Assembly (NCBI GenBank): GCA_030683995.1
Contig: JAUXPH010000015.1
Coordinates: 1-64,000, forward strand
DNA: 64,000 nt
Origin: Lutibacter sp.
GTDB taxonomy: Bacteria > Bacteroidota > Bacteroidia > Flavobacteriales > Flavobacteriaceae
Reading direction: 5' to 3'
Shown in pieces: positions 13,770 to 40,767 of this stretch. Position numbers and translations under genes: made by a program. Each line of letters opens with the position of its first letter. Within the stretch, counting starts at the first letter, position 1. Below the pieces are notes generated by a model, which had not been told where the DNA came from, made no database searches, and saw only the letters and a program-made list of their open reading frames with translations.

Positions 13770-13783
13770 GTAACAATTGTTAC
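13770..13783 (+). promoter_or_regulatory. Distal palindrome GTAACAATTGTTAC upstream of the molybdoenzyme operon
   Basis: A perfect 14-bp inverted repeat in the divergent gap, with the half-site geometry of Crp/Fnr-family operators. The same GTAAC-N4-GTTAC pattern recurs at 20276-20289 and 40754-40767. Its centre is 32 bp upstream of the proximal palindrome. It could also act on the divergent cytochrome gene. Confidence 0.75.
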
Positions 13784-13801
13784 CGTTTTTAACTATGTTT
13801 A

Positions 13802-13815
13802 ATGACATTTGTCAT
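13802..13815 (+). promoter_or_regulatory. Proximal palindrome ATGACATTTGTCAT upstream of the molybdoenzyme operon
   Basis: Inverted repeat ATGACA-N2-TGTCAT whose centre lies 29.5 bp upstream of the first base of the -7-like box at 13838. That would be near -41.5, the class II activator position. Matching elements with identical spacing occur upstream of 20408 and of the SQR gene. Confidence 0.75.
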
Positions 13816-13837
13816 CCTATAAACTTGTATCTGTAAA

Positions 13838-13845
13838 TACCTTTA
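13838..13845 (+). promoter_or_regulatory. -7-like box of the molybdoenzyme operon promoter
   Basis: TACCTTTA, one base from TAnnTTTG and followed by C. The same TAnnTTTAC form occurs at the SQR promoter. An imperfect box with no -33 TTG suits an activator-dependent promoter. Confidence 0.55.
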
Positions 13846-13880
13846 CATCCGAAATAAATTAGAAATAAATTATCATACTT

Positions 13881-16124
13881 ATGACTACTTCAAGAAGAAA
13901 ATTTATCAAAATTTCTGCTTTAGGTTTAGGAGCTGTAGCAGCATCAACAACTGCAATAAATATGTTTGGATCCAATTCATATATAGATGAATTGGTTAAA
14001 CAAAATGTTTCCAAAAAATTTAAAAGAACCGCCACCTATTGCGAAGTTTGTTTTTGGAAGTGTGCCGCCTGGACGTATACAAATGAAGACGGAGAAATTA
14101 AAAAAATTATTGGCAACGACGACGATTCCCATAGTTACGGTCGATTATGTCCGAGAGGAACAGGAGGCGTTGGAATGTATACTGATGAAGATCGACTTAA
14201 AACGCCTTTAATCAGAACAACCGTAAACGGTGAACAAACATTCAGAAAAGCAAGTTGGGATGAAGCCCTTGATTTAATAGCCTCGAAATTTAAAGGCATT
14301 AAAGAAACTCATGGCGCAGAATCCATTGCTTTAATCAAACATGGAGCTCCCGGTTCGCATTTAGAACATCTTTTGAAAGCGTTTGGATCGGACACAATTG
14401 CTGAGCCAGCTTATGCACAATGCAGAGGACCGCGTGAAACTGGCTTTAATTTAACTTTTGGCTCTTGGGTAGGCTCACCGGAACCTACAGATATTAGAGA
14501 CACAAAATGTTTGGTGCTGATAGGTTCACATATTGGCGAAAATATGCACAACTCTCAAGTTCAGGAAATGTCTGACGCCATTGATAGTGGTGCCACTATT
14601 ATTACTGTTGATCCTAGACTTTCAACGGCAGCAAGCAAATCGAAATTTTGGCTTGCCATTAAACCTGCAACCGATATCGCTTTAATGCTTTCTTGGATGA
14701 ATGTTTTAATAGAAGAAGGCATTTATGATAAAGAATACATCAACAAATATGCAACAGGTTTTGATGAATTGAAAAAACATGTGAGCCAATTCACACCAGA
14801 ATGGGCTTACGGAATTACCACCATAAAACCTGACGTGATAAGAGAAACCGCACGAGCTATGGCGCATGCCGCTCCTGCTGTAATTATTCATCCCGGCCGG
14901 CACGTAGTTTGGTATGGTGATGATTCACAAAGAGCAAGAGCGATGGCCATTTTAAATGCGTTATTGGGTTCTTGGGGAAGACGTGGCGGTTTTTACTTTA
15001 AAGAAGCCGCTAAAGTTCCTAATTTTCCAGCACCAGCTTATCCGGAGCCAAAATGGGGATGGAAAGAAATTGGAGAGAAATATCCTTTGGCGCAAATGGG
15101 AATTACCAATGAAGTTATGAAATGCATGCTTCCTGATAAAGACAATAAATATCCGGTAAAAGCATTAATGGTTGCAGGCACAAACATCACCAAAGCGATG
15201 CCGAACAAAAAATTGTTGGAAGACGCTATGGATGCATTAGATTTTATGGTTGTTATTGACACGATGCCGATGGATGTAACCGGTTATGCAGACGTTGTTT
15301 TACCAGAATGCACTTATTTAGAACGTTACGATGATATTCGTTCCGCAACCAACAGAGAACCTTCCATTGCCATTAGAGTACCTGCAGTTGAGCCAAAATA
15401 CGACTCAAAACCTGCTTGGTGGATGGCCAAACAAATTGGTGAGCGTTTAGGCTTGGGCGCTTATTTTAACTATGATGATTTCAAAGAAGTGATTGAATGG
15501 CAGTTGAAAGAAATGGGAACTTCTTTAGAGGAAATGGAAAAAATAGGCGTAAAAAATTATCCTCGCAAATCTGGACCAATGTATATAAATGAAGATGAAA
15601 CGTATCATTTTCCTACAGATAACGGAAAAATTCATCTTTATTCCCAGGAATTAAAAGATTTAGGATTTGACCCATTACCAAATTACACAAAACACCCAGA
15701 ACCGCCTCAAGGTTTTTACAGATTAAACTATGGAAGAGCTCCAATGCACACTTTCAGCAGAACTGCAAATAACCCTAACTTAAACGATTTGAAAAAAGAA
15801 AATGACCTTTGGGTAAATCCGAAAGTTGCCAGAATCATTGGGTTGAAATCGGGCCAGGAAGTTTGGCTAAAAAATCAGGATGATATTATTTCCACATTTT
15901 CAATAAAAGTGAGAGTTACTGAAAGAGTTCGTTGGGATTCTGTATATATGGTGCACGGCTTCGGACACCAAAACAAAGAATTAAGCCGAGCCAACGGAAA
16001 AGGAATTAACGATACGGAACTAATTACCAAAGTATTCACCGATCCAATTATGGGCGGAACCGGAATGAGAGGAAATTTTGTTGCCATTTTAACTGAAAAC
16101 CCTTATAAAAATACTGAGATATGA
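13881..16124 (+). CDS. Tat-exported molybdopterin oxidoreductase, polysulfide/thiosulfate reductase type catalytic subunit
   Basis: The 747-residue catalytic subunit of a periplasmic molybdo-bis(pyranopterin guanine dinucleotide) enzyme. A twin-arginine signal (SRRKFIK, residues 4-10) precedes a [4Fe-4S] site Cys54, Cys57, Cys61, Cys90 and a probable molybdenum-ligating Cys181 in AYAQCRGPR. Length, Tat signal, Cys ligand and the following FeS and NrfD subunits match the PsrA/PhsA branch, whose members reduce polysulfide or thiosulfate; relatives oxidise sulfur compounds or act on tetrathionate. The neighbouring rhodaneses and YeeE proteins support a sulfur substrate. Substrate and direction are inferred, not shown. 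Its stop overlaps the next start by 4 bp. Confidence 0.9.
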   Translation: MTTSRRKFIKISALGLGAVAASTTAINMFGSNSYIDELVKQNVSKKFKRTATYCEVCFWKCAAWTYTNEDGEIKKIIGNDDDSHSYGRLCPRGTGGVGMYTDEDRLKTPLIRTTVNGEQTFRKASWDEALDLIASKFKGIKETHGAESIALIKHGAPGSHLEHLLKAFGSDTIAEPAYAQCRGPRETGFNLTFGSWVGSPEPTDIRDTKCLVLIGSHIGENMHNSQVQEMSDAIDSGATIITVDPRLSTAASKSKFWLAIKPATDIALMLSWMNVLIEEGIYDKEYINKYATGFDELKKHVSQFTPEWAYGITTIKPDVIRETARAMAHAAPAVIIHPGRHVVWYGDDSQRARAMAILNALLGSWGRRGGFYFKEAAKVPNFPAPAYPEPKWGWKEIGEKYPLAQMGITNEVMKCMLPDKDNKYPVKALMVAGTNITKAMPNKKLLEDAMDALDFMVVIDTMPMDVTGYADVVLPECTYLERYDDIRSATNREPSIAIRVPAVEPKYDSKPAWWMAKQIGERLGLGAYFNYDDFKEVIEWQLKEMGTSLEEMEKIGVKNYPRKSGPMYINEDETYHFPTDNGKIHLYSQELKDLGFDPLPNYTKHPEPPQGFYRLNYGRAPMHTFSRTANNPNLNDLKKENDLWVNPKVARIIGLKSGQEVWLKNQDDIISTFSIKVRVTERVRWDSVYMVHGFGHQNKELSRANGKGINDTELITKVFTDPIMGGTGMRGNFVAILTENPYKNTEI

Positions 16125-16654
16125 GATATGCAATGATAATTGACACTTTAAAATGTGTTGGATGTAGTGATTGCGTTGTTGCTTGTCAAACCGAAAACGA
16201 CGTGCCAATAGGGTATTGCAGAGATTGGATTACTGAAACCGTAAATGGTTCCTATCCAAATCTGGAATTAGAATTAAAATCTGAAAGATGCAACCATTGC
16301 GACAATGCGCCTTGCGTAAGATGTTGCCCAACTGGCGCAAGCTATGTTGGCGTTGGCGGAATCGTTTTGGTCACTGCCAATGAATGTATTGGTTGTGGCG
16401 CTTGCATAGAATCTTGTCCTTACGATGCACGTTACCAACATCCTGATGGTTATGTAGATAAATGCACCTTCTGTCATCACAGATTAGAAAAAGGACAACT
16501 ACCTGCTTGTGTATCTGTTTGTCCAACAAAATGTATGTATTTCGGAGATTTAGACAATCCGAATAGCGAAGTTTCACAATTACTAAAAAATAGAAAACAT
16601 AAAACATTGGCTCCTGAAGCAGGAACCAACCCACACGTTTTTTACTTAATTTAA
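16121..16654 (+). CDS. Four-cluster [4Fe-4S] electron-transfer subunit, PsrB/PhsB type
   Basis: The 177-residue subunit passes electrons between the molybdoenzyme and the membrane quinone subunit. Four cysteine groups are visible: CVGCSDCVVAC (12-22), CNHCDNAPCVRCCP (about 57-70), CIGCGACIESCP (about 89-100) and CTFCHHRLEKGQLPACVSVCP (about 114-134, cited here in parts). It has no signal peptide, so it would be exported bound to the Tat-dependent catalytic subunit, as known for PsrAB and DmsAB. Start and upstream stop overlap (ATGA), giving tight coupling. Confidence 0.93.
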   Translation: MRYAMIIDTLKCVGCSDCVVACQTENDVPIGYCRDWITETVNGSYPNLELELKSERCNHCDNAPCVRCCPTGASYVGVGGIVLVTANECIGCGACIESCPYDARYQHPDGYVDKCTFCHHRLEKGQLPACVSVCPTKCMYFGDLDNPNSEVSQLLKNRKHKTLAPEAGTNPHVFYLI

Positions 16655-16664
16655 TATTAAAATT

Positions 16665-17624
16665 ATGCAAGAAGAATTATTTACAAGCGGAAGAAATATT
16701 CCTCATATAGATCCTTCATTAGAAATTTGGCACTGGCCAATATCGCTTTACCTATTTTTGGGAGGAATAGCTGCGGGAATCCTGTTTTTTGCAGCCCTTT
16801 TTTATGTACTGGGAAAAGAAAAAGAGTATCCGGCGGCTGTTAAATTTGCCTCAATCATACCTCCAATTGCTTTATCAATAGGGTTGTTGGCATTGGTTTA
16901 TGATTTAACGCATAAATTATACACTTGGAGGTTGTACACCACCTTTAGAATTGAATCCCCAATGTCTTGGGGTGCTTGGGTATTGCTGATTGTGACGCCA
17001 CTTTCATTTTTTTGGTTATTCAGTTATTATGCTGAAATTTATCCTAAAACAGAAGGAAAGTTGCAATTATTGAAAAAATTCAAATTTTTGGCAACTTTTG
17101 AACAATTTTTAAAAACCAACAGATTATACATTGCTTATGCATTAATTCCTTTAACCTTGGTTTTAGGTGTTTATACAGGCATTTTACTTTCGGCTTTTAA
17201 TGCAAGACCGCTATGGAACAATGCCATTTTAGGACCATTATTTTTAACATCCGGACTTTCAACAGGTGCTGCCGCTATTATTTTAATGGCAAAAACCAAA
17301 AAGGAAAAACATTTGTTCAGCAAAATAGATTTGGCATTAATTATTGTTGAATTGGCTTTAATCGTTCATATGATAATGGGATACTATGCCGGTTCGCAAG
17401 TACAGCTAGAAGCGATGCAATTATTGGTTGGCGGTGATTTTACACTCATGTTTTTTGGTTTTGTGGTAATTCTCGGATTAATTATCCCAGCCACACTTGA
17501 GCTTATAGAACTTATTGGCTATAAAGTTCCTGTAATAGTGCCTGCAATGCTGGTTATTCTGGGCGGATTAATATTTAGATTTGTAATGGTAGAAGCCGGA
17601 CAACTAACCCGTTTTCTATATTAA
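16665..17624 (+). CDS. NrfD/PsrC-type quinone-interacting membrane subunit
   Basis: A 319-residue integral membrane protein with about eight transmembrane segments (near 27-49, 57-80, 99-120, 152-172, 186-206, 219-240, 252-274 and 283-304). This matches PsrC, which oxidises or reduces menaquinone on behalf of the molybdoenzyme. Charged residues within helices, such as the DLTHKLYTWR loop after helix 2, are typical of the quinone pocket region. It lies 10 bp after the FeS subunit and completes a three-subunit complex. Confidence 0.92.
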   Translation: MQEELFTSGRNIPHIDPSLEIWHWPISLYLFLGGIAAGILFFAALFYVLGKEKEYPAAVKFASIIPPIALSIGLLALVYDLTHKLYTWRLYTTFRIESPMSWGAWVLLIVTPLSFFWLFSYYAEIYPKTEGKLQLLKKFKFLATFEQFLKTNRLYIAYALIPLTLVLGVYTGILLSAFNARPLWNNAILGPLFLTSGLSTGAAAIILMAKTKKEKHLFSKIDLALIIVELALIVHMIMGYYAGSQVQLEAMQLLVGGDFTLMFFGFVVILGLIIPATLELIELIGYKVPVIVPAMLVILGGLIFRFVMVEAGQLTRFLY

Positions 17625-17635
17625 AACAAGAAATC

Positions 17636-18169
17636 ATGAAAAAAGAATTAAAACAAAAAAGTAAGCACATTTATTGGAATCCTTATTATGGAGGTTTTTT
17701 ATTGGGAATTCTAATCTTGTTTACCTTTTATTTAACAGGTAGAGGTCTAGGGGCCAGCGGCGCCATGAAAAGTAGCGTTGTTTCTATTATTGAATCTGTC
17801 GCGCCAACGCATGCCGAAGAAAGCAGCTATTACAGTAAATTTATAACTGAAGATGAATCCCCAATGAAAAACTGGCTGGTATTTGAAACACTGGGCGTTT
17901 TGATTGGTGCATTTATATCTGGTGGCTTAAGTGGAAGAATTGGCTGGAGAATTCAACATTCTCCTAAAATTACAAGCAAACGCAGACTTGTATTTGCGGT
18001 AATTGGCGGTGTTTTATTTGGACTGGGCGCGCAAATTGCACGTGGCTGCACAAGTGGTGCTGCATTAAGCGGCATGGCTGTACTTTCAACGGGAGGCTTT
18101 ATCACCATGCTGGCCATTTTTGGTTCGGCGTATGCAACGGCTTACTTCTTTAGAAAAAATTGGATTTAA
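17636..18169 (+). CDS. YeeE/YedE family half-size transporter, first subunit
   Basis: A 177-residue membrane protein of the DUF395 (YeeE/YedE) family, whose full-length members such as TsuA take up thiosulfate through a relay of cysteines. The N-terminal TGRGLGASGAMKS loop and the C-terminal IARGCTSGAALSG loop with Cys138 are the family signatures. It contains about four hydrophobic segments, half the usual number, and pairs with the next gene. Such split pairs accompany sulfide-responsive operons in other bacteria. Likely role: moving thiosulfate, sulfane sulfur or another sulfur anion across the inner membrane. Confidence 0.9.
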   Translation: MKKELKQKSKHIYWNPYYGGFLLGILILFTFYLTGRGLGASGAMKSSVVSIIESVAPTHAEESSYYSKFITEDESPMKNWLVFETLGVLIGAFISGGLSGRIGWRIQHSPKITSKRRLVFAVIGGVLFGLGAQIARGCTSGAALSGMAVLSTGGFITMLAIFGSAYATAYFFRKNWI

Positions 18170-18192
18170 TTAAATAAAAAAATAAAAAAATT

Positions 18193-18783
18193 ATGGGACC
18201 TTTAATTCCTAACGGCGTAATTCCATATGAATGGGACAATATAATCGCCATATTAATTGGTATTGCTTTCGGATTTGTTTTGGAAGCGTCTGGATTTTCA
18301 TCCTCCAGAAAACTTGCCGGTGTTTTTTACGGCTATGATTTTGCCGTTTTAAAAGTGTTTTTTACCGCTGCTTTGGTTGCTGTAATTGGTGTTTACTATA
18401 TGGATTACCTTGGATTCTTAGATATCAATCAACTATATGTTCACCCAACTTATTTATGGGGAGCAATTATTGGCGGAATTATTATGGGTGTGGGATTTGT
18501 TGCTGGCGGATTTTGCCCAGGCACAAGTTTATGTGCGGTGGCTATCGGTAAAATTGACGCCATCGTTTATGTAGGCGGAATTATGGTTGGAATTTTCATT
18601 TTTTCTGAATTATATCCATTATTTCAACCCATTTACGAAGGTTATTTTTACGGAAATGTAACCTTGGAAGATTCTCTTGGCATAAATCCATATTGGTTTG
18701 TATTTATATTTTCCATTATTGCAATTGTAGCATTTGTAATATCTGATATGGTGCAAAAAAGAGTTAAAAAAATATTTTACTAA
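18193..18783 (+). CDS. YeeE/YedE family half-size transporter, second subunit
   Basis: A 196-residue partner of the preceding gene. Signatures are the ASGFSSSRKLAG loop (32-43) and the VAGGFCPGTSLCAVA loop with Cys108 and Cys114, followed by further membrane segments. Together the two halves supply the loops found in one full-length YeeE protein. It lies 23 bp downstream of the first half and 12 bp upstream of the first cysteine-tailed rhodanese-like gene, consistent with handing sulfur between transporter and carrier. Substrate is inferred. Confidence 0.9.
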   Translation: MGPLIPNGVIPYEWDNIIAILIGIAFGFVLEASGFSSSRKLAGVFYGYDFAVLKVFFTAALVAVIGVYYMDYLGFLDINQLYVHPTYLWGAIIGGIIMGVGFVAGGFCPGTSLCAVAIGKIDAIVYVGGIMVGIFIFSELYPLFQPIYEGYFYGNVTLEDSLGINPYWFVFIFSIIAIVAFVISDMVQKRVKKIFY

Positions 18784-18795
18784 AAAAATAACACC

Positions 18796-19458
18796 ATGGT
18801 TAAAAAAAAGATCGCAAAAGTTTTAGCTTTCAGATATAAAATTTTGGCAGCAATTTTGATTTTACTTGCCGGAGGTTTGGTTTTATTGCCTAAATACCAA
18901 AAACACGAAGGCATAAAGCCTGAAGAATTATTAAGTAACACCATCAGCCCGGAAAGATATATGACTACCGATCGGTTGGCGCATATAATAATCAACCAAG
19001 ATCCTTCCTTTATATTGATTGACGTAAGGGATGAAAAAAGTTTTGCAAGTTATTCGCTTCCAAATGCCATTAACATTCCGCTTAAAAAATTATTTGATGA
19101 AGATTCTGAAGGCTACTTAAATCAAAATCAATTTGATGTGGTGCTTTTTTCAAATGATCATTTTTATGCAGATCAAGCCTGGATTTTATGCAATCGCTTA
19201 GGATATAAGCATATGCGTGTATTAAAAGGTGGCATAAACCAATGGTATACAACAATTATTAATCCGATGAAACCGGCTGAAAATATGGCAGCTGCGGAAT
19301 ATGAATTGTATACAACAAGAAAAGCAGCCAGCATGTTTTTTGGCGTAGTTTATCCTGAACAAGTAAAAGTGGAAGCGCCTAAAATTGTAAAAGAAGCGCC
19401 TAAAAAAGTAATCACTATTGAAAAGAAAAAGAAAGCAGAAGCCGAAGGCGGTTGTTAA
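18796..19458 (+). CDS. Membrane-anchored rhodanese-like protein lacking the catalytic cysteine, with C-terminal Gly-Gly-Cys tail
   Basis: A 220-residue protein with one membrane segment (about 15-32, positively charged N-terminus inside) and a periplasmic rhodanese fold. The LIDVRDEKSFASYSLPNAINIP segment is recognisable in two pieces (LIDVRDEKSF, SLPNAINIP). The loop that should carry the catalytic cysteine reads VVLFSNDHFYADQA, with Ser119-Asn120 instead. The C-terminal tail KKVITIEKKKKAEAEGGC ends in cysteine and is repeated in the next gene. Only Cys132 and Cys220 are present. Role unknown; a carrier of persulfide on the tail is a hypothesis. Confidence 0.85.
   Translation: MVKKKIAKVLAFRYKILAAILILLAGGLVLLPKYQKHEGIKPEELLSNTISPERYMTTDRLAHIIINQDPSFILIDVRDEKSFASYSLPNAINIPLKKLFDEDSEGYLNQNQFDVVLFSNDHFYADQAWILCNRLGYKHMRVLKGGINQWYTTIINPMKPAENMAAAEYELYTTRKAASMFFGVVYPEQVKVEAPKIVKEAPKKVITIEKKKKAEAEGGC
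19399..19458 (+). repeat. 60-bp repeat encoding the Gly-Gly-Cys tail, copy 1
   Basis: The last 60 bp of this gene including the stop match 20041-20100 at 57 of 60 positions. All three differences are synonymous. Confidence 0.9.
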
Positions 19459-19482
19459 TTTTAAACTTTATAAAATACACTT

Positions 19483-20100
19483 ATGAAAGAATTAGAAAAA
19501 ACCAAACGTATATCAATAGCCGCAACGCTTTTTATATTGGCAGTAATCATAGGGCTTTTAACTTACAAAAGACCAAAAAATGTATATGCCATTAACTCTA
19601 AAGACACCCTTGAAAAAATAACAAGCGCGAATTACTTTACCACTTTAGAAGAGTTGAAAAATCCGGAATATGTGTTAATTGATATCAGAAATCAATATGA
19701 GTTTGAAAAAGGCCATTTAGAAAATGCGATTAATATTTATGCTGCCGAGATTTTAAGCGATGACAATATAAAAGTTTTTGATGAATTGAAAGAAAGTAAT
19801 AAAACGGCTATTTTGTATGGAAATAATCCGCAAGAAGTAAATGCCCCTTTTCTTATTTTATATCAATTAGGCTATGACAATATTAAACTGCTGACTATTG
19901 AAAATAGCTATTTGCAAAATAAGTTAATCACTAAAAACAGCGAGATAGAAAAGTCTGAAGCCGATATAACCGCATTTATAAATGAATCGGTTAAAAAAGC
20001 GAATGCAACCGAAACCGTAAAAAAAGAGGTGGCGGCACCTCCTAAAAAAGTAATCACCATAGAAAAGAAAAAGAAAGCAGAAGCCGAAGGCGGCTGTTAA
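19483..20100 (+). CDS. Second membrane-anchored rhodanese-like protein lacking the catalytic cysteine, single C-terminal cysteine
   Basis: A 205-residue paralogue of the preceding gene with a membrane segment (about 10-28) and a rhodanese fold (YVLIDIRNQYEFEKGHLENA, about 63-82). The active-site loop reads TAILYGNNPQEV, with no cysteine. The only cysteine in the whole protein is the last residue, at the end of the tail shared with its neighbour. Between domain and tail is a charged, probably flexible linker (about 150-187). It is the last gene before a strong terminator at 20104-20147. Confidence 0.85.
   Translation: MKELEKTKRISIAATLFILAVIIGLLTYKRPKNVYAINSKDTLEKITSANYFTTLEELKNPEYVLIDIRNQYEFEKGHLENAINIYAAEILSDDNIKVFDELKESNKTAILYGNNPQEVNAPFLILYQLGYDNIKLLTIENSYLQNKLITKNSEIEKSEADITAFINESVKKANATETVKKEVAAPPKKVITIEKKKKAEAEGGC
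20041..20100 (+). repeat. 60-bp repeat encoding the Gly-Gly-Cys tail, copy 2
   Basis: Matches 19399-19458 with three synonymous differences, while the rhodanese domains upstream are clearly diverged. This suggests gene conversion or strong constraint on the tail. Confidence 0.9.
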
Positions 20101-20103
20101 TTT

Positions 20104-20147
20104 AATCAAAAAAAGCTGTTTAAAAAAACAGCTTTTTTTTTGATTAA
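20104..20147 (+). terminator. Terminator ending the molybdoenzyme operon
   Basis: AAAAAGCTGTTT and AAACAGCTTTTT arms form a hairpin with long flanking A and T runs extending to AATC/GATT, directly after the last rhodanese-like gene. It can act in both directions. Confidence 0.85.
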
Positions 20148-20275
20148 ATTCCAAAAATTTTATTTTTCAAAACAGCTGCTTTCCTCTTTGATATACCCAG
20201 TTTTCCACTTCAAAAAAACAATAATTACCACCTGTAATTTTACGTTACAAACCTCCATTTTTATTAAGAAAAAAT

Positions 20276-20289
20276 GTAACATATGTTAC
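20276..20289 (+). promoter_or_regulatory. Distal palindrome GTAACATATGTTAC upstream of the exported rhodanese operon
   Basis: Perfect 14-bp inverted repeat of the same class as 13770-13783. Its centre is 44 bp upstream of the proximal palindrome. Confidence 0.75.
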
Positions 20290-20319
20290 TGTAAAGAACG
20301 TGTATATATTGCATGCTGA

Positions 20320-20333
20320 ATGACAAATGTCAT
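20320..20333 (+). promoter_or_regulatory. Proximal palindrome ATGACAAATGTCAT upstream of the exported rhodanese operon
   Basis: ATGACA-N2-TGTCAT, arms identical to 13802-13815. Its centre is 29.5 bp upstream of the -7 box at 20356, the same spacing as at the other two sulfur promoters. Confidence 0.75.
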
Positions 20334-20355
20334 ACTAATAAATCCTATCCATAAT

Positions 20356-20363
20356 TAATTTTG
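20356..20363 (+). promoter_or_regulatory. -7 box of exported rhodanese operon
   Basis: TAATTTTG, a full match to TAnnTTTG, 45 bp upstream of the ATG at 20408. Confidence 0.65.
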
Positions 20364-20407
20364 TGGCATAAATAACACCTATAATTAATATTAAATTAAA
20401 CCCAATC

Positions 20408-21430
20408 ATGAAAAAAATAACATCATATTTTGTAATGCTTTTTATAACAACTGCTTTATTAAGTGGTTTTAAAAGTAACGCTCAGGATAGTGCGGAAACG
20501 CCAAAATCAGAGTTTGAATTGTTGGTCCAATATTTAGAAGAAAATGGAAATTACATCAATACCGACGCGCCTTCAATGATCAATGCAACCGAAATTAAGG
20601 AGAATTTAAAAAATCCAAAATATTTAATCATTGACATCAGAAAAGACACTGATTATGAAAAGGGCTTTATCAAAGGAGCCATTAATGTTAAGGCTGAAGA
20701 ATTAATTCATTATTTTGACAAGAAAATTAAACCAGCCAATTACGATAAAATTACCATCGTATGCTATTCTGGCCAATCAGCGTCATATTTCAGCGCTGTT
20801 TTAAGAATTCTTGGTTACAACAATGTGTATACTTTAAAATGGGGTATGAGTTCTTGGGGCAAAAGTTTTGCACAAAACATTTGGACTAAAAACACTTCCA
20901 GCGCTTTTGCGGGAAAGATAGAAACCAAACCAAACCCAATGCCTGCTAAAGGAGACACTCCAGTACTGGCAACAGGTAAAACCAATGCAAAAGAAATTCT
21001 AAAATCAAGGGCAGAAATGGCTATTGCAACCGTTTATAAAGATTTTATTACCAAAGCAGAAGATGTGTTTGCAAACCCAGCAAACTATTATATCGTTAGT
21101 TATTGGAATGAAGAAAAGTACAATAATGGGCACATTCCGGGTTCTGTACGATACGAACCTAAAAAAGCTTTCAACTTGGCCATTGATTTAACCACATTGC
21201 CAAAAGACAAAAGAATTATTGTACAATGTGCAACAGGTCAAACTTCGGCATACATAACCGCATATTTACATATGTTAGGGTACAATGTTGGCAACTTAGC
21301 ATATGGCGCCAACGGATTTATGAATAGCGTATTGGTAACAAAAGGTGAAGGCTGGGACGCTTTCACACCAAAAGATATTAATGAATTCCCAGTGGCAACT
21401 AAAGAGCTCGCAGCTCCAGGTTGTGACTAA
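20408..21430 (+). CDS. Exported tandem rhodanese with C-terminal Gly-Cys-Asp
   Basis: A 340-residue periplasmic sulfurtransferase with signal peptide 1-26 (ending KSNAQ) and two rhodanese domains. Domain one (about 55-155) has the active loop CYSGQS at Cys119; domain two (about 215-315) has CATGQT at Cys274. Both loops keep the catalytic cysteine, unlike the two anchored paralogues. The chain ends APGCD, placing a third and last cysteine at residue 339. Rhodaneses move sulfane sulfur from thiosulfate or polysulfide to a thiol acceptor. It heads an operon with another tandem rhodanese and a porin. Confidence 0.9.
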   Translation: MKKITSYFVMLFITTALLSGFKSNAQDSAETPKSEFELLVQYLEENGNYINTDAPSMINATEIKENLKNPKYLIIDIRKDTDYEKGFIKGAINVKAEELIHYFDKKIKPANYDKITIVCYSGQSASYFSAVLRILGYNNVYTLKWGMSSWGKSFAQNIWTKNTSSAFAGKIETKPNPMPAKGDTPVLATGKTNAKEILKSRAEMAIATVYKDFITKAEDVFANPANYYIVSYWNEEKYNNGHIPGSVRYEPKKAFNLAIDLTTLPKDKRIIVQCATGQTSAYITAYLHMLGYNVGNLAYGANGFMNSVLVTKGEGWDAFTPKDINEFPVATKELAAPGCD

Positions 21431-21497
21431 CAAAAACCTCATAAACAATGGGGATTATTAAATTCAAAAACAATAAATTAATTTAAAATTAAAAAAA

Positions 21498-22523
21498 ATG
21501 AAAAAATTATCACGATTATTTATCGGACTTTTTATAATACCGATGTTCTTATTAACTTCTTGTGACAGAGGAGATGACGTGGTTGTGAGTACCACACCTA
21601 AGTTTAATGTCCTAAAAGATTATATGGTCGCCAATAGTCTTGATCTGGACAAAATTTTAACCTCTACAGACAACATTTCTTTCATTTTAGACGCTCCGGC
21701 TGCTGCTTTAGATGTTACAACATTTTTAAACACCTATTACATTATGGACGTAAGAGCTGCTGCAGATTTTGCCACAGGCAGGGTTGCAGGGGCTAAAAAC
21801 GTTGCTTTTGCCAATATTTTAACTGATGCAACTGCGGCAAAAGCTGCAGGAAACACCAAAGATATTTTGGTAATTTGCTATACCGGTCAAACCGCTACTT
21901 ATGCAACAGCTTTATTGCGTTTGTACGGATTTAAAAACACTAGAGCGCTTAAATGGGGTATGTCTGGTTGGAATCCAGCTTTTGACAAATATACTGCAGG
22001 TATTGGAAATATTGTACAAGGAAATTCCTTCTGGACTAACGTTGCAACACCTCCAACTCCCCCATCTTATGAAGTACCAACTCTTTCAAGTTCTGCAAGT
22101 GACGGATTGGCAATTTTAAAACAACGCGTAGAAGCTGTTGTTGCTGAAGGCACAAAAACTGTTACGCCAGCTGCAGTAGCAGCAAATCCAACAGGCTTTT
22201 TCTTAAATGATTACAAAAGTGCCGCTGATTATACAGGTTATGGCCATTTTACAACCGCATACAGAATTCAACCTTTAACATTGGCTCTAAACAATCATTT
22301 AAACATCAATTCATCGCCAACAGCCAAAGTTGTTACTTATTGCTATACCGGCCAAACATCTGGAGTTGTAACCGCTTTTTTAAGGGTAATGGGATATGAT
22401 GCTTATTCTATGAATTTTGGAATGAACGGATTATGGAATGAAAATCCTTTTTGGCCAGCACCACCAGTTGGAAACAAATGGGTAGCTTCAAGAATAAAAT
22501 CTTACCCAACAGTAACCAATTAA
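21498..22523 (+). CDS. Tandem rhodanese lipoprotein
   Basis: A 341-residue lipoprotein with lipobox LLTSC at Cys22, then a short acidic stretch and two rhodanese domains. The loops CYTGQT at Cys127 and CYTGQT at Cys282 both carry the catalytic cysteine. Domain one has the usual YIMDVRAAADFATGRVAGA segment; domain two replaces the DVR element with LNDYKSAADY, so its fold is more diverged. Anchored in the outer or inner membrane facing the periplasm, it would act next to the soluble rhodanese encoded 67 bp upstream. Base composition and alanine content are higher than in its neighbours. Confidence 0.9.
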   Translation: MKKLSRLFIGLFIIPMFLLTSCDRGDDVVVSTTPKFNVLKDYMVANSLDLDKILTSTDNISFILDAPAAALDVTTFLNTYYIMDVRAAADFATGRVAGAKNVAFANILTDATAAKAAGNTKDILVICYTGQTATYATALLRLYGFKNTRALKWGMSGWNPAFDKYTAGIGNIVQGNSFWTNVATPPTPPSYEVPTLSSSASDGLAILKQRVEAVVAEGTKTVTPAAVAANPTGFFLNDYKSAADYTGYGHFTTAYRIQPLTLALNNHLNINSSPTAKVVTYCYTGQTSGVVTAFLRVMGYDAYSMNFGMNGLWNENPFWPAPPVGNKWVASRIKSYPTVTN

Positions 22524-22590: not shown

Positions 22591-23637
22591 ATGAAAAATA
22601 AATTAATGTTATTATTGGCGTTCCTATTCATTTTCCAAGCAAACAAAGTTTTAGCGCAAGGATGTGATGAAGGTGATGATAAGGCCAAAGAGGAAAAATC
22701 CGAAGTAAAAGCGGATGATTCGAAAATAAAAGTTTTTGGATTTTTACAAGCGCAATATGATTATGATGTGTTTAGTGATGCCAATAGTTTTAAATTTAAA
22801 AGAGCAAGAGTTGGTGTGACAGGAGCTGTGGCGAAAGATTTTACCTATTATATGGTGTTGGAAACTGCGCCCTTGCTAAGCTCTAACGGCAGCGTTTACT
22901 TATTGGATGCGTTTATTACTTATCACAATAGTGATTGGGTTAAATTGTCTTTAGGACAATTTAAACAACCTTTCGGTTTAGAAGTAAATACAGCTTGCAA
23001 TGCGCTGACTACTATTGAAAGATCGATGATTTCTGATCAATTAGTAGCGCCGCAACGCGATTTAGGTTTGATGTGGTTAGGTGGCAATAAAGACACCAAA
23101 TTACGATACGCGATTGCTTTGCAAAACGGAAGCGGCATAAGCACTGTTGACAACAATAAGAAAAAAGACATTAGTGGTAGAGTTTCTTACAAACCTTTTG
23201 ATTTTTTAACTGTTGGTGGCAGTTACCGTTATGGTTTCCCAACCAACAATGATGATGAAAGAACCACTTATGGTGCAGATGCTGAAGCAAAATACAAAAA
23301 CTTTAAACTTGTTGGAGAATATATTTACGATGAAGGCTCTTACAATGCAGCAGCTAGCGGAGGTTGCGGTGGCGCACCATCTACTTTAGGTCCAAAAAGA
23401 CAAGGCGCTTATGTTACTGCTTCTTACCTAACCAAATGGAACATTGAACCTGTTTATAAATATGAATATTTTGACACTTGTTTGGATTATTCAAAAAATA
23501 TGAATGAAATAGTTACTATGGGTGTAAATTATTATATCAATAGCGCTACTCGTTTACAAGTGAATTATCAATATAAGGTTGAATCGTACGAAATTGACAA
23601 TGATGCCTTCTTAGTTCAATTGCAAGTTAAGTTCTAA
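22591..23637 (+). CDS. OprO/OprP-type outer-membrane porin
   Basis: A 348-residue beta-barrel porin with signal peptide 1-23 (ending VLAQ) and a mature N-terminus GCDEGDDK that includes Cys25 in an acidic, charged stretch. The repeated pattern of amphipathic strands and the motif FLQAQYDYDVFSD followed by FKFKRARVGVTGA match the phosphate-selective porin family (PF07396), and the last strand ends in Phe. A glycine-rich loop with Cys (SGGCGGAPS, near 254) is unusual. It probably admits anions such as thiosulfate or polysulfide for the periplasmic rhodaneses and molybdoenzyme. Anion identity is inferred from context. Confidence 0.88.
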   Translation: MKNKLMLLLAFLFIFQANKVLAQGCDEGDDKAKEEKSEVKADDSKIKVFGFLQAQYDYDVFSDANSFKFKRARVGVTGAVAKDFTYYMVLETAPLLSSNGSVYLLDAFITYHNSDWVKLSLGQFKQPFGLEVNTACNALTTIERSMISDQLVAPQRDLGLMWLGGNKDTKLRYAIALQNGSGISTVDNNKKKDISGRVSYKPFDFLTVGGSYRYGFPTNNDDERTTYGADAEAKYKNFKLVGEYIYDEGSYNAAASGGCGGAPSTLGPKRQGAYVTASYLTKWNIEPVYKYEYFDTCLDYSKNMNEIVTMGVNYYINSATRLQVNYQYKVESYEIDNDAFLVQLQVKF

Positions 23638-23661
23638 TTTATTTTATAATTATTTGAATTG

Positions 23662-23696
23662 AAAAACTCTTGATTTAAATCAGGAGTTTTTTTTTT
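23662..23696 (+). terminator. Terminator after the porin gene
   Basis: AAAACTCTTGATTT and AAATCAGGAGTTTT pair as a nearly perfect 14-bp stem with one G-T wobble, followed by a T run. It closes the rhodanese-porin operon. Confidence 0.85.
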
Positions 23697-23729: not shown

Positions 23730-24395
23730 ATGCCTTTTATTATGAATACTGATGAAACACTGTTAAGGAGCAAATTAGATGATTATTATTCAGAAATTTT
23801 TGAAAAGGAATTAATTGATGAGATCGTTGAAACAGGAATCTATAGAGTTATTGCCAGCGGCGAAACTTTAATTGACATTGGCGATAACATGACTCATGTG
23901 CCACTGATCTTAAAAGGAGCCGTGAAAATTATTCGCGAAGATAAATACGGCCACGAAATAGCCTTATACTTTCTGGAAAGAGGAGATACCTGCGCCATTT
24001 CATTTGTAAACTGCATAAACAGGTCTAAAAGTATGTTCCGCGGAGTCGCCGAAAAAGAAACAGAAGGCATATTTGTGCCTGTTTCTAAAATTGATGATTG
24101 GTTAATTAAGTACAAATCCTGGCGTCATTTTATTATAGACAGCTACCATATGCGCCTAATTGAAATGGTTGAATCTATTGACAGTTTGGCATTTATGAAG
24201 TTAGATGACAGGTTGCATAAGTATTTGGTGGATAAAGTTAAAATAATGCAAGACAACACTTTAATAATTACCCACCAAGAAATTGCCGATGACATTAACA
24301 CCTCACGCGTAGTGGTTTCGCGCTTGCTTAAAGTTCTTGAAAACGAAGGCAAAGTAATCATCCGCCGCAACAGAATTATTATTGAAAATATTTAA
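23730..24395 (+). CDS. Crp/Fnr family transcriptional regulator of the sulfur island
   Basis: A 221-residue regulator with an N-terminal cyclic-nucleotide-binding-like barrel (about 30-125), a dimerisation helix and a C-terminal winged helix (about 165-220). The recognition helix is TSRVVVSRLLKVL, with Ser192, Arg193 and Arg198 at the DNA-contact positions and Val in place of the Glu of E. coli CRP. It lacks the N-terminal Fnr cysteine cluster, but Cys88 and Cys95 lie in the loop GDTCAISFVNC. Its position beside the sulfur operons makes it the leading candidate to bind the paired palindromes there. A shorter start at 23742 is possible. Confidence 0.9.
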   Translation: MPFIMNTDETLLRSKLDDYYSEIFEKELIDEIVETGIYRVIASGETLIDIGDNMTHVPLILKGAVKIIREDKYGHEIALYFLERGDTCAISFVNCINRSKSMFRGVAEKETEGIFVPVSKIDDWLIKYKSWRHFIIDSYHMRLIEMVESIDSLAFMKLDDRLHKYLVDKVKIMQDNTLIITHQEIADDINTSRVVVSRLLKVLENEGKVIIRRNRIIIENI

Positions 24396-32055: not shown

Positions 32056-32077
32056 ATAATCTTTAAAATGTATTGGA

Positions 32078-32701: not shown

Positions 32702-32906
32702 AATTTAATGGTGTTTGGCCTATTAAATTTCTGGGACAAATGTACAACTTATTTTTTAAACAGCAGAAAAAACGCAAAAAGGCCTTTTCTTTTAATAAAA
32801 ATTTAACAAAAATTACTATTTGTTGCATTAAAATTAAAAATATAAAACCTTACTAAAAAGCTTGGTTTAACTGGGCAAACCAGTCCTTTGAGAAATAATA
32901 AAAAAA

Positions 32907-35244: not shown

Positions 35245-35249
35245 TGTTG

Positions 35250-35257
35250 CAAATGTA
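35250..35257 (-). promoter_or_regulatory. -7 box of dapF operon, leaderless start
   Basis: TACATTTG on the minus strand, then CAACA and the dapF ATG. Confidence 0.5.
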
Positions 35258-35369
35258 CTAAATTCAGAATGGTTTTATTCATTAAATTTTTGTGAAAAAT
35301 TTTAGTGTTAAAAATTGTTAAAAGACCGTTAACAAAGAGTTAAAGCAATTTTTTAAAAGAAGAAATCGT

Positions 35370-35377
35370 TAATTTTG
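35370..35377 (+). promoter_or_regulatory. -7 box of degP-like gene
   Basis: TAATTTTG, 26 bp upstream of the chosen ATG. The longer frame from 35377 starts inside this box, which argues for the start at 35401 or 35404. Confidence 0.5.
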
Positions 35378-35403
35378 TGTTCATAAATTTAATAAATTGG
35401 ATG

Positions 35404-36810: not shown

Positions 36811-36819
36811 AAAAGCTGA

Positions 36820-36848
36820 AAGACCGGAGACAGAAGACCGGAGACGGA
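36820..36848 (+). repeat. Short direct repeat GACCGGAGAC
   Basis: GACCGGAGAC occurs twice, about 15 bp apart, just after the protease stop and in a G/A-rich block unlike the flanking DNA. Such GACCGGAGAC-type strings occur between genes in Flavobacteria. Confidence 0.5.
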
Positions 36849-36863
36849 AGTTCAATTATATTG

Positions 36864-36893
36864 AAAAAAGCTGCTTTTACTGGCGGCTTTTTT
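36864..36893 (+). terminator. Terminator after degP-like gene
   Basis: AAAAAAGCTGC and GCGGCTTTTTT arms with one G-T wobble and a T run. Confidence 0.75.
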
Positions 36894-36988
36894 ATTGATT
36901 TTAACAGATGTTTTTTTACGGATAAATATGTTGCGAAATCGTTTGAAATGGGTACTTTTACCGAATATTTAAACAAAACAATTTTAAT

Positions 36989-38434: not shown

Positions 38435-38480
38435 GAATTAACAAATAATAAAAATTAGTCTTTTGTTCATTACATAAACT

Positions 38481-38514
38481 AAAAAAGGATGTTTTTTTGA
38501 AAACATCCTTTTTT
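38481..38514. terminator. Bidirectional terminator between gap and dsrE
   Basis: Arms AAAAAAGGATGTTTT and AAAACATCCTTTTTT form a perfect 15-bp stem around TTTG. It ends both gap and the convergent SQR-TusE-DsrE operon. Confidence 0.9.
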
Positions 38515-38534
38515 AAATTTAAGTTTATAATGTG

Positions 38535-39038
38535 CTATGTAAAAATGATTTGGGTTCTGTCTCCATCGCATAATTCGTAAAATTCGCCAATGGTGATAAT
38601 ATCTTTTACTTCATCCGACAATTGCGATTTGGTTAATTTAAACATATCCACAGCAAGTCTACATGCGTAAATGGTGCCGCCACCAGCGGTTATCATTTCT
38701 AAAAATTCATCAACAGGAGGCATTCCCAGTTCGTCCATTTGTTTTCGCATCATTGAAGATACTGCTGATTCAACGCCTGGTAATCCGCCAAGCATGGTTG
38801 GAAATGGCAATCCGCCCGGCATTTTCATAGCCGGATTTCCGGTTGTTGCGGTGTGCAAGTGATTCATCGACTTTTTTGTGATTCCTTCCAAGCCAAAGAA
38901 AGTGAAAAATAAATTTGTTTCAATACCTTCCATTACAGCGCCATTTGCCATAACCAATGAGGCATAAACATCTTCTAAATTTCCTTTAGCGCATATTATA
39001 CAAACTTTTTCTAATGGTTTTTTTTCTTTCGTTTCCAT
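38535..39038 (-). CDS. DsrE/DsrF-like sulfur-trafficking protein
   Basis: A 167-residue cytoplasmic protein of the DsrE family, which binds persulfide on a conserved cysteine and passes it to partners such as TusA or DsrC. The chain begins with KVCIICAKGNLEDVYASLVM, has a Met/Gly-Pro-rich middle (about 68-110), and carries the candidate active-site Cys126 in GGTIYACRLAVDMF. The longer DsrE2-like form fits its size. It is the last gene of an operon with a TusE protein and an SQR-like flavoenzyme, 15 bp after tusE. Confidence 0.88.
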   Translation of the reverse strand: METKEKKPLEKVCIICAKGNLEDVYASLVMANGAVMEGIETNLFFTFFGLEGITKKSMNHLHTATTGNPAMKMPGGLPFPTMLGGLPGVESAVSSMMRKQMDELGMPPVDEFLEMITAGGGTIYACRLAVDMFKLTKSQLSDEVKDIITIGEFYELCDGDRTQIIFT

Positions 39039-39053
39039 ACTTATGATTTTAAA

Positions 39054-39365
39054 CTAAATACAACTGGTTGGTTTAGGGATTCCTGCTATTTTTGAGGAGA
39101 ATTTTAAAGGCCCTTTTGGGAACAATTCGTATAATTGTTTGATATCAACAATTCCCGATTTACCAACGCTTCTTATGGTTAACGCCTCTTTAGCGATTGT
39201 TTTTTCGCGTAAATAATTGAGAACTTCAAAATGTTTATCTGTTAATTCAATATTTAATTCTTTTGCAATTTCATTTGCAATTTCTTTGTTCCATTGAGTC
39301 ATATCTTCTAGGTATCCGTCATCTGTAACTTTCACCTCAACTCCTGCTATAGTTTTTACAGCCAT
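39054..39365 (-). CDS. TusE/DsrC family protein with a single C-terminal cysteine
   Basis: A 103-residue sulfur carrier of the DsrC/TusE family. The C-terminal arm ends AGIPKPTSCI, placing the conserved carrier cysteine at penultimate residue 102. The second cysteine of true DsrC, 11 residues earlier, is Ser91 here, so it cannot form the trisulfide-type bridge used with DsrAB and is closer to TusE. No DsrAB, TusA or TusBCD is encoded in the window. It lies between the SQR-like gene (21 bp upstream) and dsrE. Confidence 0.9.
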   Translation of the reverse strand: MAVKTIAGVEVKVTDDGYLEDMTQWNKEIANEIAKELNIELTDKHFEVLNYLREKTIAKEALTIRSVGKSGIVDIKQLYELFPKGPLKFSSKIAGIPKPTSCI

Positions 39366-39386
39366 AATATTTAGTTTTAATAGTTA

Positions 39387-40640
39387 TTAATTATTTTTTT
39401 CTGGTTTTATATCAAATACTTTTCCTTTAAAGCTCATATTTCTCGATACAAATGGAATTGCAATTCCTTTTAAAAGCATATTCCAGTATATCCATCTAAA
39501 TGCCAATTTTCCCCAATGATTTAGTACGCTTTCTTTTAAAAGTGACATAGGACCTATTTTTGCGAAAGGAAATTTTCCGTGTACAGGTTCTGTTACATAA
39601 TTAAAATCGATGAGCAACGCCTTGTTGTTTCCCGTTTCAATAAAACAGTTTGCGTGGCCGTCAAATTCTTTTTTTAATGGAAATCCGTCAATATATAACA
39701 GAATATTGTCTGTCAAAGTTTCCGCTTCAAAATGGGCAACTGAGCCAGCTTTGGAAGCGGGAACATTCGTTGCATCACCAATTACAAAAATATTTTTATG
39801 TGCATTTGATTGCAGCGTGTTATGGTCTGTCGGCACAAAATTTAAATCATCGCCCATACCCGATTTTTCTATCACTTCATCACCCTTATTAGTTGGAATG
39901 GTCACCAGCAAATCAAAAGGGATTCTTCTGCCTTCATAATCAACAATTTCTTTGGTGTCATTATCTACGTGTTCAATCGCAAAATCAATTTCGATATTTA
40001 TGTCTTTTTCTTTTAAAAGGTAATTCAACGCCGTGGTACAGGTTGGTTTTGTAAACGCACCCGAAAGCGGTGTAACATAACTAATTTCCACCTTGTCTCT
40101 CATTCCTTTGTCACGGAAATATGAATCGGCCAAAAAAGCAAATTCTAAAGGCGCAACCGGACATTTAATCGGCATTTCAGTTATATGTACCAGTAATTTT
40201 CCGCCTTGCCAATCTCTTAATTTATCTCTTAATGCCAAAGAACCTTCATAAGTGTAAAAGTCGAAAATGTCTTTTTTCCAAAGTGGCCCCAACAATCCGT
40301 CAGTTTCTTCAGGCGCAATTTTACAGCCTGTAGCAATAATTAATACATCATATTTTAAAGTTTCACCTTCCAGTTCAACCTTATTTTCTTCGGGAATGAT
40401 TTTCTCTATTTTTTTTTGAACGTAATTTACATCTTTAGGAATAAATTTTTTCCCGACTTTTTTTACTTGATTTTCATTATAAATATCAAAAGGAAGAAAT
40501 AAAAATCCAGGTTGATAATAATGCGTTTTGAATTGGTCAACTATGGTGATATTCCATTTATTGAGATATAGTTTTGGCCTAAGGTGATTAGCCATCATTG
40601 TGCCTGAAGTGCCCGCACCTAATATAACTAAGTTTTTCAT
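39387..40640 (-). CDS. Sulfide:quinone oxidoreductase-like flavoprotein
   Basis: A 417-residue FAD-dependent oxidoreductase of the SQR/FCSD group, which oxidises sulfide to polysulfide or persulfide with quinone. It has the N-terminal FAD motif VILGAGTSGTMMANHL, the second loop IIATGCKIAP, and FVIGDATNVPASKAGSVAHF for the flavin ribityl site. Candidate active cysteines are Cys160 in MPIKCPVAP and Cys332 in HANCFIETG, at the places used by SQR; Cys106 and Cys201 are also present. The C-terminal helices suit membrane surface binding. It heads the operon controlled by the palindrome pair at 40732-40767. Confidence 0.88.
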   Translation of the reverse strand: MKNLVILGAGTSGTMMANHLRPKLYLNKWNITIVDQFKTHYYQPGFLFLPFDIYNENQVKKVGKKFIPKDVNYVQKKIEKIIPEENKVELEGETLKYDVLIIATGCKIAPEETDGLLGPLWKKDIFDFYTYEGSLALRDKLRDWQGGKLLVHITEMPIKCPVAPLEFAFLADSYFRDKGMRDKVEISYVTPLSGAFTKPTCTTALNYLLKEKDINIEIDFAIEHVDNDTKEIVDYEGRRIPFDLLVTIPTNKGDEVIEKSGMGDDLNFVPTDHNTLQSNAHKNIFVIGDATNVPASKAGSVAHFEAETLTDNILLYIDGFPLKKEFDGHANCFIETGNNKALLIDFNYVTEPVHGKFPFAKIGPMSLLKESVLNHWGKLAFRWIYWNMLLKGIAIPFVSRNMSFKGKVFDIKPEKNN

Positions 40641-40701
40641 TTTTAAATGTTTAATTTACGAATGGGTTTATTGCTATTCTAAAATAACTTTTAATATTTT
40701 G

Positions 40702-40709
40702 TAAAGTTA
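40702..40709 (-). promoter_or_regulatory. -7-like box of the SQR operon
   Basis: TAACTTTA (followed by C) on the minus strand, the same TAnnTTTAC form as at 13838. It lies exactly 29.5 bp from the centre of the proximal palindrome. Confidence 0.55.
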
Positions 40710-40731
40710 CTTAAGTTGCTTTATGCTATTT

Positions 40732-40745
40732 ATGATAATTATCAC
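40732..40745 (-). promoter_or_regulatory. Proximal palindrome of the SQR operon promoter
   Basis: On the minus strand GTGATAATTATCAT, containing the perfect 12-bp palindrome TGATAATTATCA. It matches RTGAYA-N2-TRTCAT with the other two sulfur promoters and keeps the same spacing to the -7 box. Confidence 0.7.
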
Positions 40746-40753
40746 TATCGTAA

Positions 40754-40767
40754 GTAACTATAGTTAC
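40754..40767 (-). promoter_or_regulatory. Distal palindrome GTAACTATAGTTAC of the SQR operon promoter
   Basis: Perfect 14-bp inverted repeat. Its centre is 22 bp upstream of the proximal palindrome in the direction of transcription. Confidence 0.75.

Follow-up and report, generated by a model that had tools for sequence, protein, structure and literature searches.

The window analysed here, a stretch of 64,000 nucleotides from Lutibacter sp. (GenBank assembly GCA_030683995.1, contig JAUXPH010000015.1, positions 1 to 64,000 of the forward strand), contains three promoters, designated P1, P2 and P3. They precede the genes of a molybdoenzyme complex, two double-rhodanese genes with a porin gene, and a gene set for sulfide:quinone oxidoreductase (SQR), a TusE/DsrC-family protein and a DsrE2-like protein, respectively (Table 1). 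Each promoter carries two palindromes of different sequence upstream of a -7 box, a distal GTAAC-N4-GTTAC and a proximal site of the FNR type. With a probability that we put at roughly 70%, these are dual-activator promoters, at which an FNR-type protein would act from -41.5 and a Crp/Fnr protein of a subfamily with the recognition-helix motif SRVV would act from further upstream, its signal most likely being reactive sulfur.

Table 1. Sites and genes at the three promoters (centres are relative to the transcription start, assuming the -7 box position of Flavobacterium psychrophilum)
Feature	Position	Strand	Remark
P1 distal site GTAACAATTGTTAC	13770..13783	+	centre about -73.5
P1 proximal FNR-type site ATGACATTTGTCAT	13802..13815	+	centre -41.5; fits the class II pattern of the own genome
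P1 -7 box TACCTTTA	13838..13845	+	
Molybdopterin oxidoreductase	13881..16124	+	best NCBIfam model PhsA, under cut-off (463.5 of 694 bits)
4Fe-4S ferredoxin subunit	16121..16654	+	
NrfD-type membrane subunit	16665..17624	+	
Two half-size YeeE/YedE (Sulf_transp) genes	17636..18783	+	
Two rhodanese-domain genes	18796..20100	+	
P2 distal site GTAACATATGTTAC	20276..20289	+	centre about -85.5
P2 proximal FNR-type site ATGACAAATGTCAT	20320..20333	+	centre -41.5
P2 -7 box TAATTTTG	20356..20363	+	
Two double-rhodanese proteins	20408..22523	+	
Porin_O_P family porin	22591..23637	+	
Crp/Fnr protein P0001	23730..24395	+	R180 and V181 (CRP numbering) in recognition helix; Cys88, Cys95; candidate distal-site binder
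DsrE2-like protein	38535..39038	-	NCBIfam cut-off not reached, Pfam cut-off passed
TusE/DsrC-family protein	39054..39365	-	
Type III SQR	39387..40640	-	exceeds cut-off of the selenoprotein-subtype model
P3 -7 box TAACTTTA	40702..40709	-	starts at 40709
P3 proximal FNR-type site GTGATAATTATCAT	40732..40745	-	centre -41.5
P3 distal site GTAACTATAGTTAC	40754..40767	-	centre about -63.5

Geometry and conservation of the paired sites

Within the window, neither motif has an exact match other than these six palindromes, whose positions and spacings, like the -7 boxes, are all as a sequence-only reading of the same DNA had placed them. The centre of the proximal site lies 29.5 bp from the start of the -7 box at P1, P2 and P3, and the distal-to-proximal spacing is 32 bp, 44 bp and 22 bp, respectively. 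In the available portion of the transcription start map of F. psychrophilum (PMC9723704), the -7 box lies at -12 to -5; assuming that the present organism resembles F. psychrophilum, the proximal centre is thus expected at -41.5, in agreement with the class II geometry that had been proposed. According to an excerpt of PMC3688515, 19 of 23 FNR-activated Escherichia coli promoters with a known transcription start have their site within 4 nt of this position.

A genome-wide scan with the strict pattern GTAACN4GTTAC-N5..35-TGAYN4RTCA yielded three matches in the 3.08-Mb genome, exactly P1, P2 and P3, while the control gave none. The refuting case named in the sequence-only reading, a pair equally frequent at unrelated genes, thus did not arise in this genome for the strict pair. 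The distal motif GTAACN4GTTAC alone is not enriched (10 sites versus 17 for its reversed control), and the proximal motif RTGAYANNTRTCAY is (13 sites, control 0). When a wider gap was allowed, two more distal sites with an FNR-type class II site downstream appeared, one on contig C33 with a spacing of 17 bp and one on contig C65 with a spacing of 55 bp.

The genus is represented by 37 genomes, the own one included, of which 33 carry the strict pair; none of 23 genomes from other families does (control 0 of 60). It should be noted that the genomes, molybdoenzyme loci and Crp homologs counted here and below overlap and were not deduplicated. The four genus genomes that do not have the pair (G004, G013, G018 and G036) gave no molybdoenzyme match at an E-value of 1e-100, whereas the same search matched the molybdoenzyme in six of seven pair-bearing genomes; the exception is G007, whose pairs are located at SQR and a cytochrome. 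Among 296 genomes drawn from the order, the strict pair is present in 10 of 50 Flavobacteriaceae (control 1) and in 4 of 246 others, where the control matched in 2, so that outside the Flavobacteriaceae the pair is near chance level.

Of the 82 places with a strict pair, 80 were fetched, P1 being among them and P2 and P3 of the window being the other two. The next gene encodes the molybdoenzyme at 27 places, SQR at 13, a FadL-type protein at 10, a double rhodanese at 9, a tryptophanase-type protein at 5, HypA at 4 and a multihaem-cytochrome-type protein at 2; an acetyl-CoA-synthetase-convergent gene accounts for 3 and singles for 7. Pfam assignments were made on single members only (FadL, L113 and the own L001; cytochrome, L159; HypA, L114; beta-eliminating lyase, L129), the remaining genes were named by N-terminal similarity or by eye, and at L144, L152 and L179, where the script had missed the start codon, the gene was assigned manually. 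The three sulfur operons thus account for 49 of the 80 pairs. The designation "sulfur regulon" used in the sequence-only reading is too narrow for the pair, because other genes also carry pairs and the proximal motif is general (see below). At 63 of the 80 pairs the box TA..TT[TC] lies at 29.5 bp, and no other offset between 8.5 and 79.5 bp is found at more than 5. The spacing of the two palindromes is fixed for each type of next gene (32/31, 22, 31-32, 44, 19 or 26 bp); the 44 bp of P2 recur at 9 places of relatives and the 22 bp of P3 at 13.

Conservation was followed further at P1 and P2. From 80 orthologous molybdoenzyme loci, two with less than 150 bp upstream were dropped, and the other 78 were tested with a relaxed pair plus box, which was found ahead of the molybdoenzyme in 62 and in 0 promoters in each of 20 shuffled sets. 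Upstream of other open reading frames at the same loci it occurred in 25 of 1139 cases, of which the P2 rhodanese gene accounts for 22 and a crp gene for one. The pair is absent from 16 loci, namely L042, L078, L082, L083 and L091 together with 11 loci (L098-L100, L102 and L104-L110) from Saprospiraceae, Cyclobacteriaceae, Bacteroidales and unplaced Bacteroidetes or Flavobacteriales. The spacing at the paired molybdoenzyme promoters is 32 bp in 44, 31 in 4, 33 in 2, 22 in 3, 43 in 2, 53 in 2 and 75 in 1, with off-phase values of 17 in 3 and 39 in 1; at 22 loci with a P2 pair it is 43-44 bp in 14, 64-66 in 6, and 31 and 68 once each. The distal site of the sulfur promoters is therefore found mostly in steps of about 10.5 bp (22, 31-33, 43-44, 53 and 64-66 bp), in support of the helical phasing noticed at P1 to P3, and the distal protein would always face the same side of the helix. 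Because the loci share ancestry, independent spacing events are fewer than loci. The pairs before hypA (L114, L150, L155 and L172; 26 bp) and before genes for proteins resembling beta-eliminating lyases or tryptophanase (L122, L129, L130, L184 and L190; 19 bp) lie outside this phase.

Candidate proteins for the two palindromes

The proximal palindrome looks like a general low-oxygen FNR-type class II site that is not specific for sulfur genes, because its class II form (TGAYN4RTCA-N22..24-TANNTTTR) has 54 matches in the own genome and 0 in the control. Thirty matches were fetched, and 23 of them have a downstream open reading frame; named by eye, these include ccoI, ccoS and genes of the FeoA type, the pyruvate- and indolepyruvate-ferredoxin-oxidoreductase types, the pyruvate phosphate dikinase type, the FadL type and YeeE. 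On contig C47, an fnr-like gene is divergent from ccoI across one such site, and another site precedes ccoS; the encoded protein, also read by eye, has an N-terminal CxxC and further cysteines. One of the 54 matches, at 23671, was considered as an FNR class II promoter of the crp gene at 23730. It is probably the stem of an apparent intrinsic terminator between the porin and crp genes (23664-23696), whose AAACTC..GAGTTT stem, followed by a T run, contains TGATTTAAATCA and so mimics a class II site in pattern scans, and it is therefore not counted as a promoter of crp.

The 10 distal motifs of the own genome have a different distribution. Besides P1 to P3, they precede an unknown gene (C33), an Fe-S subunit (C65), two rhodaneses (C52 and C32) and a thioredoxin (C24), and the remaining two lie in the leader of a FadL-type gene (C11) and inside an open reading frame (L005, C44). 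The regulon thus extends, on other contigs, beyond the 27 kb given in the sequence-only reading. At the two rhodanese genes (L006, G000:C52:2731, and L003, G000:C32:19333) the GTAAC-N4-GTTAC palindrome stands alone, 29.5 and 28.5 bp from the -7 box, and the own-genome scan lists no FNR-type class II match at either.

That each motif also occurs alone, at a gene set of its own, argues for two Crp/Fnr-family inputs, one of the two options that had been offered for P1 to P3. The other option, that a single Crp/Fnr protein binds one palindrome strongly and the other weakly, could appeal to their common 14-bp geometry (TAA/TGA-N6-TTA/TCA). It is disfavoured by the separate gene sets, by the recognition helices of the own-genome Crp/Fnr proteins, which split into types with E181 and types with R180/V181, and by the fact that 51 of the 62 paired molybdoenzyme promoters combine two distal half-sites of the A-type base with a proximal site in which TGA is retained; we consider it very unlikely.

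The candidate for the distal site that is encoded in the window itself, P0001, matches HTH_Crp_2 and cNMP_binding above the cut-off. Its model (mean predicted local distance difference test score, pLDDT, 86.8) has the Crp fold, the nearest PDB entries being NtcA, 3dv8, Vfr and CRP. The own genome contains 11 HTH_Crp_2 matches, and among the six proteins inspected (five above the cut-off and a third paralog encoded on contig C13), R180 with a residue other than Glu at 181, namely Val181, is found only in P0001 and in a paralog on contig C13. The two clades to which these belong comprise 91 proteins, 89 of them with Val181. The third paralog (G000:C13:45426-46025, L251) is 34% identical to P0001, has the helix VSREAISR and is encoded behind yeeE genes; in its group, no alignment column has a cysteine in more than half of the proteins.

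Residues G71, E72, R82, S83, T127 and S128, which we take to be the cAMP contacts of CRP, are replaced in all 91 proteins of both clades, including the single G in column 128, which is not the residue of CRP either. The contacts to cAMP are lost in the subfamily. All 71 close homologs, a set that left out proteins of less than 190 amino acids, have both Cys88 and Cys95, and Cys88 is also present in 20 of 20 C13-type proteins. Order-wide, an equivalent of Cys88 is found in 100 of 100 homologs, while the second cysteine shifts its position and lies elsewhere in the C13 type. The geometry of the two cysteines in the model was not used because residues 91-100 have a mean pLDDT of only 63 and Cys95 cannot be placed.

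The neighbourhood of the crp genes links the subfamily to the distal motif. Among 20 relatives of the genus with a C13-type crp gene, 11 have GTAACN4GTTAC 9-18 bp behind the end of the match (10 exact). Four loci (L251, L261, L263 and L268) carry GTGATN4ATCAC before yeeE, at the same place as the GTAACN4GTTAC of relatives. An order-wide scan covered 101 crp loci from among the matches listed; one was not alignable. Among these loci, an exact GTAACN4GTTAC lies within 250 bp of 21 of 65 V181 homologs but of only 1 of 35 E181 homologs; at L315 an exact site 12 bp behind the match falls outside the 21 since the open frame runs on. In an unbiased scan for 5-bp inverted repeats, GTAAC ranked first at the V181 homologs (21 of 65), followed by the same site extended, TGTAA with a 6-bp gap (9 of 65), and others at no more than 4, and nothing comparable was found at the E181 homologs (best at most 3 of 35). 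The V181 homologs with a GTAAC site come from four families of the order (f1, f5, f7 and f11).

A -7 box lies 28.5-30.5 bp from 9 of the 23 crp-adjacent GTAAC sites of the order. Twelve of the 18 listed neighbours of such sites are of sulfur type (9 by Pfam, 3 by eye), namely TauE in 4, SulP in 4, YeeE in 2, and a metallo-beta-lactamase-rhodanese and a rhodanese in 1 each; four of the twelve (L332, L316, L315 and L346) belong to E181 homologs or to loci outside the 21. The other six, two short unknown proteins, a haem-binding protein, a metal-binding domain and two outer-membrane-efflux-like proteins, are not clearly sulfur-related. Because the motif adjoins genes of the SRVV subfamily in four families, often before sulfur genes, the distal palindrome most likely belongs to the Crp/Fnr subfamily of 23730-24395 and its C13 paralog, and the identity of the binders of both sites is strongly suggested. 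The gene at 23730, whose Crp/Fnr product the sequence-only reading had put forward for footprinting, is thus retained as a candidate, for the distal site only and jointly with the C13 paralog.

The same motif, GTAACnnnnGTTAC, has been described for HcpR2 proteins, in which residues 180 and 181 are tied to the half-site (Rodionov et al. 2005, PMC1274295, in the text available). The distal site might thus be a nitric-oxide site of the HcpR2 type, and the operons would answer to nitrogen oxides instead of sulfur. The identity of the motif is the argument for this possibility; in contrast, none of the six own-genome proteins inspected, out of 11 HTH_Crp_2 matches in all, has Pro181, and the neighbours of the motif are often sulfur-type genes and SRVV-type crp genes (hcp itself was not searched for), which makes it highly improbable in our view.

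Either or both members of the subfamily may serve the distal sites. Of the 37 genus genomes, 34 are listed with a paralog-type match (58-62% identical to the window Crp), and in five the pair is retained with no close ortholog of the window type, so that the C13 paralog alone might serve the distal sites and the window Crp might be a duplicate with another role, for example in feedback. The window Crp, however, has the identical recognition helix and is encoded directly behind the P2 genes, and we lean against this possibility while taking it seriously.

Two described regulators of Porphyromonas were considered as known versions of this family and dropped. The 30 PDB matches of P0001 do not include CrpPg (2GAU), and the paper on that protein does not contain the word sulfur; the paper on PgRsp mentions neither GTAAC nor rhodanese.

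Proposed signal and promoter logic

The preferred reading can be stated as follows. Under low oxygen, an FNR-type protein, most likely the one encoded on C47 beside the cbb3-oxidase genes, would bind the proximal palindrome at -41.5 and activate from there by a class II mechanism. An SRVV-helix Crp/Fnr protein (23730-24395 and/or the C13 paralog) would bind GTAAC-N4-GTTAC on the same helical face, centred at -63.5, -73.5 or -85.5, and as a second activator would add contacts of the class I type. The signal of the latter is most likely reactive sulfur because the cAMP contacts are lost, an invariant cysteine lies in the old ligand region and the sites often precede sulfur genes. The operons probably respond to low oxygen and sulfur, and they may depend on both inputs, low oxygen AND sulfur; signal and AND logic are suggested less firmly than the identity of the binders.

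The direction of regulation is inferred from the position of the sites. Crp/Fnr proteins can act both as activators and as repressors, and the distal-site protein might instead repress, or gate FNR activation until sulfur is present. In its own genome, the FadL-type gene (L001, G000:C11:128883-128974) carries an FNR-type class II site and, in its leader, GTAACAATTGTTAC at about 79 bp downstream from the centre of that site, which would suit a repressor; at the FadL-type genes of relatives, unlike the own L001, GTAAC lies 31-32 bp upstream. Moreover, CstR, SqrR and BigR, which respond to persulfide or sulfide, are repressors (PMC9774590, in the sections available). Yet at the sulfur promoters the site lies upstream, mostly in phase and at class I distance, and elsewhere it lies at class II distance (9 of 23 crp-adjacent sites and two own-genome rhodaneses), both of which are activating positions, so that repression or gating appears unlikely.

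Several observations weigh against the dual-activator reading or narrow it. In relatives the pair also precedes non-sulfur genes of the FadL, tryptophanase, HypA and cytochrome types, only 22 of the 34 loci that have the P2 gene show the relaxed P2 pair, and off-phase spacings exist (17, 19, 26, 39 and 68 bp, and 55 bp in the own genome). Pair and window Crp do not always go together: G001, G006, G015, G019 and G027 have the pair with no match of at least 70% to the window Crp and only the paralog type or less (G015 and G027 are 62% and 88% complete), and a window-type Crp is present in the pair-less G013, G018 and G036. An exact site is not found near 44 of the 65 V181 homologs. Behind the C13-type crp, the own clade (4 of the 20 relatives) has GTGATN4ATCAC instead of GTAAC with an unchanged helix, and 5 of the 20 have neither.

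Some relatives have distal sites of the GTGAC type, which are only partly explained. An additional R180/E181 regulator, sharing 71-100% identity with the query, is present in 4 of 12 GTGAC-site genomes and in 0 of 13 GTAAC genomes, and it is not found in the two Lutimonas genomes with a perfect GTGACN4GTCAC (helices of the stronger matches only); a nearby SRET-type Crp as the general reason for GTGAC sites was therefore rejected, being true in only 4 of 12. The base in the left half-site and residue 181 covary (16:0 against 1:6, p 7e-5, uncorrected). On the tree, from which L367 was left out, only two independent pairs remain, of which one agrees and the other shows no difference, and for the presence of a site near the gene, the two pairs lean on average in the opposite direction (same way 0.4, other way 1.0). 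Covariation with the recognition helix was thus not accepted as proof.

As a broader proposal, put forward tentatively and with the odds somewhat against it, a reactive-sulfur sensor of the Crp/Fnr fold might be widespread in Flavobacteriales. Its cyclic-nucleotide pocket would have become a thiol switch (Cys88 and a nearby cysteine), and it would read GTAAC-N4-GTTAC and, from class II sites, control the adjacent genes for metallo-beta-lactamase-rhodanese, TauE, SulP or YeeE, while at other promoters it would be stacked behind FNR in register. If this were true, a Crp/Fnr-fold sensor would do the job of CstR, SqrR or FisR of other phyla, and sulfur respiration and sulfide oxidation would need both low oxygen and sulfur.

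To our knowledge, little is known about the regulation of sulfide and thiosulfate use in Bacteroidota, and the present results point to a subfamily of regulators with a likely DNA site and gene set, and to a promoter grammar in which a class II FNR site is combined with a phased site further upstream. Precedents exist for each element, that is, for FNR class II promoters, for the GTAAC motif and for sulfur-responsive regulons. The E. coli FNR class II promoters share the site near -41.5 and the anaerobic energy genes, but the promoters described here have the Bacteroidota -7 box TAnnTTTG, the half-site TGAYA and a second Crp/Fnr partner upstream. TauE presumably belongs to the gene sets of CstR, SqrR/BigR and FisR. 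These regulators also have conserved cysteines and overlapping sets of sulfurtransferase, dioxygenase and SQR genes, but they are CsoR-, ArsR- and Fis-type proteins, in contrast to the Crp fold and activator-like site positions seen here (PMC9774590, same sections). The HcpR2 proteins of clostridia, Bacteroides and Thermotogales resemble the subfamily in the palindrome and in having a residue other than Glu at 181, and differ in Pro181 and hcp versus Val181 and sulfur-type genes (PMC1274295, text available). Crp promoters with sites at -41.5, -61.5 and -93.5 likewise combine a -41.5 site with an upstream one (PMC5957442, in the part available), whereas two different proteins are proposed here. 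No description of the subfamily as a sulfur regulator was found in the open-licence literature, nor was the combination of these elements, a sulfur-sensor candidate of this Crp/Fnr subfamily in Bacteroidota or the phased two-regulator grammar; in the available sections of the sulfur-sensing review (PMC9774590), FNR does not appear and the word Crp occurs only twice.

Three minor features of the genes behind the promoters may be added. The molybdoenzyme has its closest named relative, at 99% identity, in a metagenome-assembled genome of Lutibacter. The two YeeE/YedE halves at 17636-18783 are in reversed order, the end of the profile coming first and its start second. The SQR is above the NCBIfam cut-off for the selenoprotein subtype of type III SQR, yet its reading frame is open.

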